Shown here one piece after another: positions 13,748 through 41,150 of a stretch of 56,087 nucleotides of DNA. The DNA is from an uncultured Pelagibacteraceae bacterium (GTDB lineage: Bacteria; Pseudomonadota; Alphaproteobacteria; Pelagibacterales; Pelagibacteraceae). The DNA is taken from the NCBI GenBank assembly GCA_902633595.1, contig CACPGV010000002.1, positions 1-56,087 of the forward strand, read 5' to 3'. The notes under the pieces were generated by a model that had not been told where the DNA came from, did no database searches, and saw only the letters and a list, made by a program, of their open reading frames with translations. Within the stretch, counting starts at the first letter, position 1. The number at the start of each line of letters is the position of its first letter. Made by a program: the position numbers and the translations under genes.

Positions 13748-15109
13748 TTAGTTAGCGAATAGAGTATCTGGTAACCAAAGAGCTATTCCAGGAAATAGAT
13801 ACATAAGCACCATCGCAAAAATAACTATACCTAAGAATGGCATAATACCTGTAAATATCTGCATTAGTTCTACGTTTTTACTTTGTACACCTTTTAAATA
13901 ATAAGCGGACATGGCCATGGGTGGAGTTAAAAAAGAAGTTTGTAAATTCAAAGCAATCAGCATCGCAAAGAAGTAAGGGTTTACCTCAAAAAATGCTACA
14001 AGAGGTAAAAATATTGGTACAAATATAATTAATATTTCTGTCCATTCTAAAGGCCAGCCAAGTAAAAAAATTATTAACTGAGTTATAATTAAAAACTGCC
14101 AAGGTTGTAGATTCATTGATTTGAAGAAATGTTCAAAAACTTCGTGTCCGCCTAAATAAGAAAATACTGATGCAAAAGTCCAAGATCCTATGAACAACCA
14201 CATGATCATTGCTGTAGTTTTCGCGGTTAAAAAGACGGACTCTTTAAAATTTTTCCACTTTAAAGTTTTATAAAAATAAGAAAGAACCAGTGAGCCAAAA
14301 GCACCAACGGCTGCTGCTTCTGCTGGAGTTGCTAACCCTCCCAGAATAGTTCCTAATACAAGAATGATTAAAGAGAAAAGAGGCAGGAAGGATACCAAAA
14401 CTTCTTTTAATATCACTGATCGCGGTGGTATATCTTCTTTAGGAGGCTTTGGTGCAATCGATGGATTAAAGTAAGCCATGGTAATTGCGTAACCTATATA
14501 AAGTCCTGCCAGTAAGAGACCTGGAAAAATAGCAGCCGCGAATAGTCTTAATGGAGATAATTGAGCAATAACGGAATAAACAATTAACATAATGCTTGGT
14601 GGAATTAAAATTCCTAAACAACCGCCAGAACAAATTACTCCAGAAGCAAATTTTTTATCGTACCCTGCCTTAATCATTGCTGGCCAGGCTAATAATCCCA
14701 TTAAAGTTACAACTGCTCCAATAATTCCTGTTGCTGTGGAAAATAATGCACAAGTGATTAGCGCTGCTACAGCCATTGAAGCTGGTAGCCTGTGTGAAGC
14801 TAATCTAATTGCAAAAAATAATCTTGATACAATACCTGCCCTTTCAACTAAATAACCCATAAATAAAAATAAGGGGACTGCAGTTAAAACTGTATTGTCC
14901 ATGACAGTATAAGTATTTTGTACAAATAATTGGAAAATTCTGTTATCAAGGAGATGTTCCATTCGAGTTGGGTCAAAGTAAGCGTAATAACCAAATCCAA
15001 CTCCCATTGCCATTAAGGTAAATGCAATCGGAAATCCTAATAAAACTGCAAATAGGAATATTCCCATCATTAAAATAGCGATTTCTGGATTTGTTAAACT
15101 AAATAACAT
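13748..15109 (-). CDS. TRAP transporter large permease (DctM family)
   Basis: Polytopic DctM features (PLFLFMGYLVERAG, CSGGCLGILIPPSIMLIVY, NLQTSFLTPPMAMSAYYLKGV). Confidence 0.94.
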   Translation of the reverse strand: MLFSLTNPEIAILMMGIFLFAVLLGFPIAFTLMAMGVGFGYYAYFDPTRMEHLLDNRIFQLFVQNTYTVMDNTVLTAVPLFLFMGYLVERAGIVSRLFFAIRLASHRLPASMAVAALITCALFSTATGIIGAVVTLMGLLAWPAMIKAGYDKKFASGVICSGGCLGILIPPSIMLIVYSVIAQLSPLRLFAAAIFPGLLLAGLYIGYAITMAYFNPSIAPKPPKEDIPPRSVILKEVLVSFLPLFSLIILVLGTILGGLATPAEAAAVGAFGSLVLSYFYKTLKWKNFKESVFLTAKTTAMIMWLFIGSWTFASVFSYLGGHEVFEHFFKSMNLQPWQFLIITQLIIFLLGWPLEWTEILIIFVPIFLPLVAFFEVNPYFFAMLIALNLQTSFLTPPMAMSAYYLKGVQSKNVELMQIFTGIMPFLGIVIFAMVLMYLFPGIALWLPDTLFAN

Positions 15110-15683
15110 CTTTTTGATCTTCGTCTTGTGCTGTTCTCATTAATATTTTTTCAGTTTCTTCTGCCACAACCATCCTAGCTGGCCAATGACCTGTTTGAAT
15201 ACAAATTATAGATCTGCAAACTTCACTTACACCTTGAATGATTAATAAAATACCTGCAGCTGGTATTAAAGATTTTGCCATATAAATTTGAATTTGAGCA
15301 GGACTATTCCAACTTGTTTCTTTTATCTTCCAAGCTAAAGCAGCATACTCATATCCATAAAATGCTAAAGCAAGTACTCCTGGAAAGAAAAATATAAAGT
15401 ATAAAACTAGATCTATATAACCTTGAGTTCTTGGTTTAAATAATCTGTAAATGACATCACCCCTTACATGTGCTTCTGTAGATAATGTGTACGCTCCTGC
15501 CATCATGAAAATGGCTCCGTACATTTGTAAACTAAAATCAAAATTCCATAGAGTAGGAGCATTGAAGGCGTATGCCATTATTACTTCATAGCATGTACCA
15601 CCCATTAAAATAACGATACACCAAGAGAATGCCTTACCAACCGAAGTGCTTAGTGTATCTGCGAAATGAATAAACCCTCTCAT
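15099..15683 (-). CDS. TRAP transporter small permease (DctQ family)
   Basis: Four-TM protein between DctP and DctM; AYTLSTEAHVRGDVIYRLF typical of DctQ. Confidence 0.9.
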   Translation of the reverse strand: MRGFIHFADTLSTSVGKAFSWCIVILMGGTCYEVIMAYAFNAPTLWNFDFSLQMYGAIFMMAGAYTLSTEAHVRGDVIYRLFKPRTQGYIDLVLYFIFFFPGVLALAFYGYEYAALAWKIKETSWNSPAQIQIYMAKSLIPAAGILLIIQGVSEVCRSIICIQTGHWPARMVVAEETEKILMRTAQDEDQKDVI

Positions 15684-15723
15684 AAGAAGTTTAAAACTAT
15701 TCTAATTTTTTGATTAATTCCAT

Positions 15724-15757
15724 AAAAAAAGGGGGCGTATTATCACCCCCTTTTTAA
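15724..15757 (-). terminator. Rho-independent terminator/attenuator between dctP and dctQ
   Basis: AAAAAGGGGG (15726-15735) pairs with CCCCCTTTTT (15746-15755); T-run on either strand. Confidence 0.75.
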
Positions 15758-15772
15758 TTTTTTTAGTAAATA

Positions 15773-16927
15773 CTAAATTTTTACTTTACCAATAGAGCCA
15801 AATTCGTTCTCGTAAGCCAACTTATAGTTAGGTTGGTTCATGAGTAAGTATTTCATAACTCTCTTAGCATAAGCTTTTTGTGAATCTATGATCTTTTTGA
15901 AGAATGCATCTTTCTTATTGAAGTCTCCAATTACTTTGTCCCAACCTTTTAATTGTTGAGCTAAGATCGCGTCAGATGTTTGATACACATTTACTTTGTG
16001 CTGGTTCATCAATTTAGATAAGTCAGCTGAGTATCTCACTAATGCTTTAAAGTAGTTGTCTGTATTTGCAGCGTAAGCAGCATTTTTTAGAATAGCCTGG
16101 TGTTTAGGCGATAGTCCATTAAATGTCTTCTTATTAACTGGAATTTCAAACATCTCTTGTGATTGGTGGAAGCTTCCTAAGTGATAATGCTTAGAAACGT
16201 CTTGCATACCAAACTGAGAGTCTGAAGTTGGGTTGTTAAACTCAGCAGCTTCAATCAATCCTGTTTTCATTGCAGGTTGAATCTCACCACCGGGTAATTG
16301 TCTTACAACCATTCCCATTGCTGTTAATACGTTAGTAGCTAATCCTACTGTTCTGTACTTCATACCTTTAACATCAGACACTTTGGTTACGTTCTTTTTG
16401 AACCAACCAAAAGGCTGAGCAGGCATCGGCATGTGAAAGAAACCAATATAATCGAAACCTACTTTTGCAAGTGTTTCATCATATAATTTTCTACCTCCAC
16501 CATACTCCATCCATCCCATTACTTCTTGAGACGACATTCCGTATGACGGACCCGTTCCGAACAGAGAAGCAGCTGGATTTTTTCCATACCAGTATGCTGT
16601 TACCCAGTGTCCCATATCAAGAACACCTGAACTTACTGCTTGTCCAATTTCTGAAGTTTTAACTACGGCACCAACTGGCTGAAGATCAATTTTTAACTCA
16701 CCTCCAGACATGTCGCCAACCATTTTTGCGTAGTCGCCAGCCATTTCAAAGAAAATGTTAGCGCCTGACGGCCAAGCCGCTTGCATCTTTAAAGTTTGCG
16801 GAGCACCAAGAGCAATGTTTGGCATTGCTACTGTTGCTGCTGCTGCTGCACCTGTTGCTGCTGCTGCTTTAAAGAACTTACGTCTTGAAGGAGTTTTTAC
16901 TCCTTTTATTTTTTTGTCTTTTGACAT
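15773..16927 (-). CDS. TRAP transporter substrate-binding protein (DctP family) with Tat-like signal
   Basis: SRRKFFKAAAATGAAAAATVAMPNIALGAPQTLKMQAAWPSG; KGMKYRTVGLATNVLTAMGMVVRQLPGGEIQPAMKTGLIEAAEFNNP. Confidence 0.93.
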   Translation of the reverse strand: MSKDKKIKGVKTPSRRKFFKAAAATGAAAAATVAMPNIALGAPQTLKMQAAWPSGANIFFEMAGDYAKMVGDMSGGELKIDLQPVGAVVKTSEIGQAVSSGVLDMGHWVTAYWYGKNPAASLFGTGPSYGMSSQEVMGWMEYGGGRKLYDETLAKVGFDYIGFFHMPMPAQPFGWFKKNVTKVSDVKGMKYRTVGLATNVLTAMGMVVRQLPGGEIQPAMKTGLIEAAEFNNPTSDSQFGMQDVSKHYHLGSFHQSQEMFEIPVNKKTFNGLSPKHQAILKNAAYAANTDNYFKALVRYSADLSKLMNQHKVNVYQTSDAILAQQLKGWDKVIGDFNKKDAFFKKIIDSQKAYAKRVMKYLLMNQPNYKLAYENEFGSIGKVKI

Positions 16928-38382: not shown

Positions 38383-39459
38383 ATGACAAAAAATATTACT
38401 TTTTTAGGAATTGAAACCAGTTGTGATGAAACAGCCGCAGCAGTAATAAGAGAAAATGATGAGGGAACTGCTGATATTTTATCTAATGTTGTTTCAAGTC
38501 AAATAGAGGAACATAAAAAATTTGGGGGCGTAGTTCCTGAGTTGGCTGCAAGAGCACATTTAGAAAATATTGAGTATATTATCGATACTGCTTTGAAACA
38601 AAGCGGAACTGCTATTAATGAGATAGATGGTGTGGCTACAACAGCTGGACCAGGTTTAATTGTATGTTTAACTGTAGGTTTAAACATTGGAAAATCAATT
38701 GCTGCTTTTTCAAATAAACCTTTAATAGGAGTTAATCACTTAGAGGGTCACGCACTAAGTCCTGGCTTAAATGAAAAGATTAAATTTCCTTATTTACTTC
38801 TATTGATATCTGGAGGTCATTCTCAGTATTTAATAGTCAAAGATGTAAATGAGTATGAACAATTAGGTACAACTATAGATGACGCTTTAGGTGAAGCGTT
38901 TGATAAAACAGCAAAAATGTTAGACTTAGGTTATCCTGGTGGACCGAATGTAGAAAAATTTTCAAAAGAAGGAGATGAAAATTTTTACAAATTGCCAGAA
39001 CCTATAATAAATAAAGCTGGATGCAACTTATCCTTTGCAGGATTAAAAACTGCAGTGTTAAGAGAATCAAAAAAAATAAATGGAGATGTTAAACTCAAAT
39101 ACAATTTAGCGGCTTCATTTCAAAAGACAATAAATAAAATTCTTTATAAGAAAACTAAAATTGCTGTAGAAATGTTTAAAAAGAAAACTAAAAAAGAGAA
39201 TTTTCAATTAATTGTAGCAGGTGGTGTAGCTGCTAATAAAACTATTAGAGAAAATTTAACTCAATTATCAAATGAGATGAATTTTGAAATAATTTATCCT
39301 GATTTGAAATTTTGCGGAGATAATGCCTCTATGATTGCCTGGGCTGGAATACAAAGATTTAAAAAGGATTTAATTGACGATTTAAATATTACAGCTAAAT
39401 CTAGATGGCCTCTCGATAAAGAAGCTCCGTATATGAAAGGTCCGGGGTTGAAATTATAA
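38383..39459 (+). CDS. tsaD: tRNA N6-threonylcarbamoyladenosine synthesis protein TsaD
   Basis: LGIETSCDETAAAVI, GVVPELAARAHLENI, GVNHLEGHALSP, LISGGHSQYLIV, VAGGVAANKTIRENL. Confidence 0.97.
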   Translation: MTKNITFLGIETSCDETAAAVIRENDEGTADILSNVVSSQIEEHKKFGGVVPELAARAHLENIEYIIDTALKQSGTAINEIDGVATTAGPGLIVCLTVGLNIGKSIAAFSNKPLIGVNHLEGHALSPGLNEKIKFPYLLLLISGGHSQYLIVKDVNEYEQLGTTIDDALGEAFDKTAKMLDLGYPGGPNVEKFSKEGDENFYKLPEPIINKAGCNLSFAGLKTAVLRESKKINGDVKLKYNLAASFQKTINKILYKKTKIAVEMFKKKTKKENFQLIVAGGVAANKTIRENLTQLSNEMNFEIIYPDLKFCGDNASMIAWAGIQRFKKDLIDDLNITAKSRWPLDKEAPYMKGPGLKL

Positions 39460-39519
39460 AGAACGAGTCCTGTGTAAATATCATAGGTTAGTGAATTATA
39501 AATAATATACCTCTTTTTT

Positions 39520-40725
39520 ATGAGAATAGTCTTTTTATTATTAATTACGATTTTATTTATACCTAAAATTCATTCTATAGAGGTTTCCTCCTTAGAAGCA
39601 GAAAGAAGACTAAAATTTAACGAATTATTTCCAAAAAAAATTTGTGACAAAATCTACAAAGATATTAATTTTGGTTCGAATAATAAATTAGAAGAAGAAA
39701 TTATGGTGCTGGCTTACCATAACCTTAAAAGAATCAAAATTAATGAGACCGACTCAAGCCTTTCTCTATTTTTTGATAACAGAACATATAGCTACAATAG
39801 TAAAAAATTAGATTTAATTATTTTTAATAACTTGTCAGATGATTTTTCTGATCAAATAACTTCAATTACAAAAAAAATTAGTAAAGCTAAAACAAAAAAG
39901 ATAGTTGTTTGTGAGTACGATTTAGAGAAGTCAATCGAAGACGGAAAATTTTTTAATTTAAGAATTAATTTTGATAATTCTCTGAGAAATATATCGAATG
40001 AAAAGCCAAAAGTTTTAATATATTACGATGGTACTATTGAGTATAATTATTACGATGAACAGATAGATTATTCAATTCCACAATTTGACTATAAGACCTA
40101 TCCATTCGATAGTCATGATTTTAAATTCTTAGTTTCATCAAGAGTTTTTGAAAATTTATTTTTTGAAAAATCTGATAAGTTTGAGATTTTATTAAAAGAT
40201 ATAAAAAAGTTTAACTTTAATAACATTTCATTTCCAGGTTGGACAATTAAACAATACATTTCTTATCCATCAATAGAGCCTTTAAAGGATGCTTATTCAG
40301 AATATTCTAAACACTCAATATCTTCAGAAATATCTATAGAAAGAAATTGGTTAACGTATTTGTACAAATTTGTAGTGCCCTTATTGATTATAACCATTCT
40401 TTGTTATGCGTGTATGTATATGACTTTAAATCATGGAAGAGCTACTTTGCTGGGAACCTTATTAGTTTCTTTTGTGGCGTTTAATTTTGTACTCGTAGAT
40501 AAAGTTCCAGAGTTACCGTACATAACATTTCTTGATTGGATAATTTTTATGGGCTACATGATAGCTGTACTAGTTATCTTAGCAATGTGCATAGAATCTT
40601 TTTATCTTTCACATTTTTACAAAAGTGATGAAAAAAAGTTTAGCAACGTAACGATAGCATTTAAAATAATTATACCTATTATGTATCTTTTATTAGGAGC
40701 TACCGGCTACTATTTAATTATTTAA
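39520..40725 (+). CDS. Pentameric (Cys-loop-type) ligand-gated ion channel, bacterial GLIC/ELIC-like
   Basis: Signal peptide; IYYDGTIEYNYYDEQIDYSIPQFDYKTYPFDSHDFKFLV (YPFD loop), pre-M1 SSEISIERNWLTYLYKFVVPLLIITILCYACMYM, M2 GRATLLGTLLVSFVAFNFVLVDKVPELPYITFLD, then M3 and M4. Confidence 0.88.
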   Translation: MRIVFLLLITILFIPKIHSIEVSSLEAERRLKFNELFPKKICDKIYKDINFGSNNKLEEEIMVLAYHNLKRIKINETDSSLSLFFDNRTYSYNSKKLDLIIFNNLSDDFSDQITSITKKISKAKTKKIVVCEYDLEKSIEDGKFFNLRINFDNSLRNISNEKPKVLIYYDGTIEYNYYDEQIDYSIPQFDYKTYPFDSHDFKFLVSSRVFENLFFEKSDKFEILLKDIKKFNFNNISFPGWTIKQYISYPSIEPLKDAYSEYSKHSISSEISIERNWLTYLYKFVVPLLIITILCYACMYMTLNHGRATLLGTLLVSFVAFNFVLVDKVPELPYITFLDWIIFMGYMIAVLVILAMCIESFYLSHFYKSDEKKFSNVTIAFKIIIPIMYLLLGATGYYLII

Positions 40726-40730
40726 AAAAT

Positions 40731-41150
40731 ATGCAATACTGGTTAATGAAATCCGAACCTGATGTTTGGTCGATAAATCAACAAAAAAAAGCAGGACAAA
40801 AAGGTGTGGCTTGGGACGGAGTAAGAAATTATCAAGCAGCAAATAATTTGAAAAAAATGGAAGTTGGTGATTTATGTTTTTTTTACCATTCTAATATTGG
40901 CAAAGAAATTGTGGGTATAGTAAAAGTGATTAAAAAAGCTTTTGTTGATAAAACAGATAAGAAAAAAAGATTTGTCGCTGTTCAAGTTAGGTTCAAAGAA
41001 TATTTAAAATACCCAGTTACCCTTGAAAAAATTAAAAAAAATAAGAGCATTTCTCATTTACCCTTGATTAAACAAAGTAGGTTGTCAGTAATGCCAATAG
41101 ATTATAAAAGCTGGAAAATACTTTGTAAGATGGGTAGTATAAGTTCTTAA
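40731..41150 (+). CDS. EVE domain-containing protein (PUA-like fold)
   Basis: [55 protein letters not shown]. Confidence 0.94.

Follow-up and report, generated by a model that had tools for sequence, protein, structure and literature searches.

Pentameric ligand-gated ion channels (pLGICs) of unicellular organisms have, according to Jaiteh 2016 (PMC4795631), no known biological role, and Pelagibacter is already listed there among the holders of these proteins. The same paper reports that the proline of the Pro-loop is conserved in 100% of the family and that selectivity is not predictable from the −2′/−1′/0′ motif in prokaryotes. Bacterial ART-LGICs are described with a PBP-I fusion or a neighboring PBP-II gene, an association for which chemoreception was proposed (Tasneem 2004, PMC549065); the term 'PDZ' is absent from that paper. 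The literature searched, with most subscription journals outside that search, contained no paper that mentions SAR11 together with ligand-gated ion channels. As far as this literature shows, the SAR11 subfamily described below, a conserved cysteine pair, inverted conservation, gene mobility, an orphan TRAP-type solute-binding protein (SBP) and PDZ sisters with protease cassettes appear to be new.

The window is the whole 56,087-nucleotide stretch analyzed here, taken from a SAR11 (Pelagibacterales) assembly of 644 kb that is 56% complete. The preliminary description placed a pLGIC between tsaD and an EVE-domain gene in a streamlined marine genome, and this placement holds. The open reading frame is exact, running from ATG to TAA at 39520..40725 (+) and encoding 401 aa, with tsaD (38383..39459, +) flanking the insertion site upstream and the EVE-domain gene (40731..41150, +; PF01878, 6e-43) flanking it downstream; the named relatives are almost all SAR11, in Pelagibacteraceae single-cell genomes. 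Phmmer matches residues 165–393 to GLIC (3tlt) at E = 2.5e-18 across both LBD and TMD, and it reproduces the Pro-loop and M2 alignments to GLIC proposed earlier. NCBIfam LGIC_1 matches at 6.7e-12 and 45 bits, below the curated cut-off of 500. The earlier assignment had been made to depend on a Neur_chan domain match or a β-sandwich plus four-helix model. Pfam Neur_chan_LBD and Neur_chan_memb give no match to the window protein even at E ≤ 1, the β strands and four helices were obtained in the model, and the assignment is right. Neur_chan_memb matches 55 of the 74 sequences in alignment A4 at E ≤ 0.01, the window protein not among them, and the Pfam miss is a failure of model sensitivity, not the absence of a defining structural feature. 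A search of the source genome with Neur_chan_LBD found no match, which is uninformative because control genomes gave none either.

The AF2 model of the window protein (mean pLDDT 73, pTM 0.65) predicts β strands followed by four TM helices, with the TM blocks at a pLDDT of about 76–91 and the N-terminal half of the ectodomain as the low-confidence part. The top Foldseek matches are GLIC and sTeLIC (2.8e-16). The [FY]PxD Pro-loop that serves as a criterion of the pLGIC superfamily is present as YPFD (residues 194–197, 40099..40110, +), and its P195 and D197 are invariant in alignment A4. The structural hallmarks are also present by AF2 and Foldseek: a β-sandwich ectodomain, of low confidence in its N-terminal half, four TM helices and the M1 proline. 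Judged from homology and modeled fold, the gene product is a genuine bacterial pLGIC and a relative of the neurotransmitter-receptor channels. The dN/dS ratio is about 0.09–0.11, with about 0.10 for the membrane part, and the value of about 0.09 against the orthologue of genome G044 indicates that the channel gene is under purifying selection.

The protein starts with a signal peptide predicted from sequence (residues 1–19, 39520..39576, +), and the mature start I20-E21-V22 is invariant among the f1, or window-type, subfamily members. An N-terminal helical extension (residues 20–62, 39577..39705, +; AF2, low confidence) carries C42 (codon 39643–39645). C131 (39910..39912, +) follows in VVCEYDL just before loop A; this CEYDL motif, YDGT[IV]EY and W241 in β9 are further landmarks of the ectodomain. 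The loop C region spans residues 246–265 (40255..40314, +), and its Y259, S260, Y262 and K264 are invariant in f1; loop C is shorter in the divergent family f2. The membrane domain consists of M1 (residues 277–300, 40348..40419, +) with the conserved P287, the pore-lining M2 from H305 (−2′), G306 (−1′) and R307 (0′) to residue 326 (40432..40497, +), M3 (residues 337–366, 40528..40617, +) and M4 (residues 371–400, 40630..40719, +), with M1, M3 and M4 bounded by AF2, in keeping with the four TM helices and M1 proline noted before. The mature ectodomain measures about 257 aa (20–276), less than the ~270 aa estimated in the preliminary description, and the extra N-terminal domain suggested there is not borne out. 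No separate N-terminal domain is recognized in the window protein; the added length comes from two helical elements, an extension at the N-terminus and an insert ahead of loop A (AF2, low confidence for both). A PDZ domain occupies this place in sister SAR11 pLGICs instead and was rejected for the window protein, which has only 43 residues there and no match.

The only cysteines of the window protein are C42, C131, C295, C298 and C357. The two cysteines bracketing the Pro-loop of Cys-loop receptors are absent, as first stated, but that statement was incomplete: the other pair, C42/C131, is conserved in 71 of 81 SAR11-type pLGICs, sister families included. Because both places hold cysteine in these proteins, a C42–C131 disulfide is likely from co-occurrence. 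Eight of the other 10 lack both cysteines and two have the N-terminal one only, nearly all being of one type. Three proteins without the pair (L016, L060, L093) have two other cysteines, at about 195 and 231, that perhaps form a substitute disulfide. Prime numbering of M2 comes from an ungapped 26-residue block, H305 to P330, that agrees with the phmmer alignment to GLIC and upholds the previous reading of −2′ as His and 0′ as Arg. Compared with the P-A-[RK] anion signature, the H-G-R entrance has the 0′ Arg and no acidic residue, but no Pro at −2′. Entrances in f1 read H-G-R, D-G-R, F-Y-R and similar, with −2′ varying (H/D/F) and the 0′ Arg (R307) invariant. The 0′ Arg is lost in f2 channels; in the PDZ sisters, 0′ is Arg or Lys, and −2′ is Glu or, rarely, Asp or Gln.

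Profile searches of Pelagibacterales and 386 genomes of the class found a coherent subfamily only inside Pelagibacterales; outside, matches are limited to the shared core (E about 1e-12 to 1e-23). The one named-genome scan took the PDZ group as query, since an alignment of 21 sequences proved too diverse for scanning a collection. An ML tree of 43 rows, unrooted and with long branches, places 18 subfamily members, including f2, on one side of a 100/100 branch. By this phylogeny the window channel belongs to one monophyletic SAR11 subfamily. Between f1 members, pairwise identity averages 62% over the ectodomain and 47–49% over the membrane domain (52–54% in M1–M3, where P287 is invariant along with R307). 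The 30 PDZ sisters show the reverse: their LBD averages 27% and their membrane domain 61%. An ectodomain more conserved than the membrane domain in f1, opposite to the sisters, points to selection acting on sensing in the window-type channels.

Comparison with congeners delimits an inserted segment of 1,271 bp at the tsaD/EVE junction (39460..40730, +). The junction is empty in most congeners, where the tsaD stop and the EVE start share one base (TAATG). Within this SAR11 genus the junction acts as an insertion hotspot, holding unrelated single genes or more (L179, L181, L186, L193); genes at the same place in other genomes, judged by eye, encode a BtuF-like binding protein, an acyltransferase-like protein, a TPP enzyme and PPDK. 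A second channel site, between DctM and the x146 gene before mdh, is filled in genomes G301 and G421 and empty in seven others. The two channel alleles (L132, L140) share 66% protein identity, while DctP and DctM are 99.5–100% identical, the flanks (DctP, DctM, mdh, sucC) are 0–4% different and the neighbors 95–100% identical. This comparison of one locus in two strains identifies an allelic replacement of the pLGIC. The window channel is near-identical to that of G540 (98.4% nt), yet tsaD and EVE of the window are closer to G044. Channel alleles out of step with their flanks in both cases indicate that the gene is mobile and is exchanged between lineages. A phage-borne origin was rejected on finding no relative of the channel in the viral_contigs scans, and a known defense system was rejected because PADLOC did not match the channel.

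In three f2 genomes (G085, G089, G139), a DctP gene overlaps the channel gene with its 3′ end. DctP occurs in 3 of 54 f2 genomes, the subfamily channel in exactly the same three and the TRAP permease DctM in none of the 54; at genome completeness of 53–100%, single absences mean little, but 0/54 for DctM is meaningful. The co-occurrence has a probability of 1/C(54,3) = 4e-5 if independent, a figure that overstates independence because the link probably reflects one or two acquisitions. One acquisition is probable since the site is the same in all three genomes and G089 and G139 are close relatives. The best solved relatives of the f2 DctP are 7ug8 (E about 4e-25) and TakP 2hzk (E about 2e-23), keto-acid binders by name. 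The Arg and Glu-Trp positions near what we take to be the TakP pocket appear to be kept (AYRAPPG, AAEW). No SBP gene adjoins the channel in the window or in most f1 members. The window does encode a complete TRAP transporter, DctM-DctQ-DctP (13748–16927, −), 23 kb from the channel, whose DctP is of an unrelated type with 26–27% identity to the channel-linked DctPs. A functional DctPQM-pLGIC operon in G301 and G421 was downgraded because this TRAP operon also occurs, free of the channel, in seven other genomes; the arrangement looks like another insertion. This type of DctP occurs in 18 of 398 genomes; in all seven further loci examined the channel is absent and DctM is followed directly by the downstream gene.

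The PDZ region of the sister SAR11 pLGICs (L022–L097) matches site-2-protease PDZ and solved PDZ domains at E 6e-13, and the AF2 model of one of them, L022, has a pLDDT of 90 and a pTM of 0.83. One cassette, at loci L022–L056, joins a ~153-aa Phage_CP76/CII-like regulator, a PrsW intramembrane protease and the PDZ-pLGIC, in which gene overlaps of about 17 nt are frequent (for example L027:3690–6473 and L022:3882–6524); among 90 loci, 53 have the PrsW-like gene and 55 the regulator. Another consists of a caspase-domain protein, a trypsin-like protease, an antisense regulator and a pLGIC of ~490 aa (L060, L062, L064, L066–L068, L076, L077, L080, L082, L083, L085–L088, L091, L093–L095, L097), and looks like a protease-channel signaling or cell-death module. 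Pfam recovered the expected domain in every sampled member (caspase 18/18, trypsin-like 18/18, PrsW 13/13), and the sister cassettes sit at several genomic positions. In a third arrangement a short pLGIC (~400 aa) directly follows a flavin amine oxidase gene (L059, L069, L070, L079 and others); Neur_chan_LBD is recognizable in this type, and the pairing suggests an amine-related ligand. PDZ-type relatives in records labeled SAR86 (L092) and Gammaproteobacteria (a MAG, L072), each with a PrsW-like gene upstream, suggest transfer beyond SAR11.

The reading preferred here, held with about equal belief and doubt, is that the protein is a chemosensory channel that faces the periplasm and responds to a small carboxylate, aided in f2 by DctP. 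The product would assemble as a homopentamer in the inner membrane and project its sensor domain into the periplasm, where the putative C42–C131 disulfide would pin the mature N-terminal helix next to loop A. The conserved ectodomain would bind a small ligand, most probably a 2-oxo-acid/lactate-class carboxylate, which in f2 would probably be presented by the DctP protein. M2 would then open, ions would cross and the membrane potential would change; the acid-free −2′/−1′/0′ entrance may make the pore less cation-selective than GLIC and perhaps anion-permissive. The subfamily spreads the channel into operon junctions as a single-gene insert or, in one lineage, as a DctP–pLGIC pair. GLIC homology and fold, the 100/100 branch, sensor-side constraint, the invariant f1 loop C residues Y259/Y262/K264, the f2 DctP linkage, the keto-acid binders nearest to that DctP and the low dN/dS favor this chemosensory reading. 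It is weakened by the probable single acquisition behind the DctP link, by the shorter loop C of f2, whose ligand may not be that of the window protein, by the missing adjacent SBP in the window, by the insertion-like DctPQM-pLGIC of G301 and G421 and by the low confidence of the ectodomain prediction at its N-terminal side. The readings weighed here overlap, and the probabilities attached to them need not sum to one.

An ordinary prokaryotic pLGIC gated directly by protons or a small ligand, as in GLIC, sTeLIC and ELIC, with no SBP and the f2 DctP a hitch-hiker, is a plausible competitor, though we lean against it. The closest solved relatives work on their own, an SBP neighbor is missing from the window gene and most f1 members, and insertion at many junctions means that neighbors can be incidental; the f2 DctP, however, occurs only with the channel, overlaps it and has no TRAP permease in any f2 genome. 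The inverted conservation, together with a weakly conserved M4, the varied M2 entrance and the f2 loss of the 0′ Arg, could also mean that the membrane domain has lost its channel function and anchors a pentameric receptor or adhesion element in the periplasm, with selection keeping the ectodomain. The M1–M3 identity in f1, the invariant R307 and P287 and the low dN/dS of the membrane part make this very unlikely. Exchange at one locus might instead reflect diversifying selection on a conflict or phage-pressure cargo gene, such as a phage receptor or defense effector. The G301 and G421 channels, 34% different between near-identical flanks, the window/G540/G044 channel out of step with tsaD, and the sister pLGICs beside caspase and trypsin-like proteases would fit, but the lack of any PADLOC match or relative in viral contigs, the low dN/dS and conservation centered on the ectodomain render this highly improbable. 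Beyond the preferred chemosensory reading lies a bolder and unlikely proposal: docking of a ligand-loaded TRAP-type SBP without a transporter opens the f2 channel, of which the window protein is a sister variant, and SAR11 pLGICs radiated as periplasmic sensors, with other branches coupled to proteases of the PrsW, caspase and trypsin-like kinds. If true, the f2 protein is an SBP-gated pentameric channel.

The subfamily makes the question of a role testable, with a conserved sensor and, in one lineage, a candidate ligand class and a physical partner in the orphan DctP. Genomes that are otherwise similar differ in having or lacking the channel at clean sites, and SAR11 is among the ocean's most abundant bacterial groups. 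The identity and motifs of the preliminary description stand and its extra domain does not; mobility, inverted conservation and the f2 DctP partner had escaped it.

Set against the known systems, the window protein resembles GLIC, the proton-gated Gloeobacter pLGIC (3eam/3tlt), in its LBD-to-M4 alignment, Pro-loop, M1 Pro and M2–M3 PxxPY[IM]T motif. Unlike GLIC, it has the N-terminal extension with the C42/C131 pair, a helical insert before loop A, His for Glu at −2′, Arg at 0′ and no recognizable WxD in β2. sTeLIC (6fl9/9ex6) is matched by Foldseek at E 7e-16 with a TM-score (target) of about 0.71–0.73, but it is 17–18% identical to the window protein, is gated by alkaline pH according to its PDB title and has no N-terminal helix or Cys pair noted. 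DeCLIC (PMC9897478), with its N-terminal jelly-roll domains, is another prokaryotic pLGIC lengthened at the N-terminus; in place of NTD1/NTD2, the extension of the window protein is short and helical, and sister SAR11 proteins use PDZ. The ART-LGICs of Tasneem 2004 share with f2 the pairing of a solute-binding protein with a pLGIC and the chemosensory proposal, whereas the f2 SBP is an orphan TRAP-type DctP in a family without TRAP permease and the window gene has no partner. The SAR11 PDZ-pLGICs come from the same bacterial order, have the same Cys pair and a related TMD, and differ from the window protein in their PDZ domain, Glu at −2′, conserved TMD with a variable LBD, and protease-gene cassettes.
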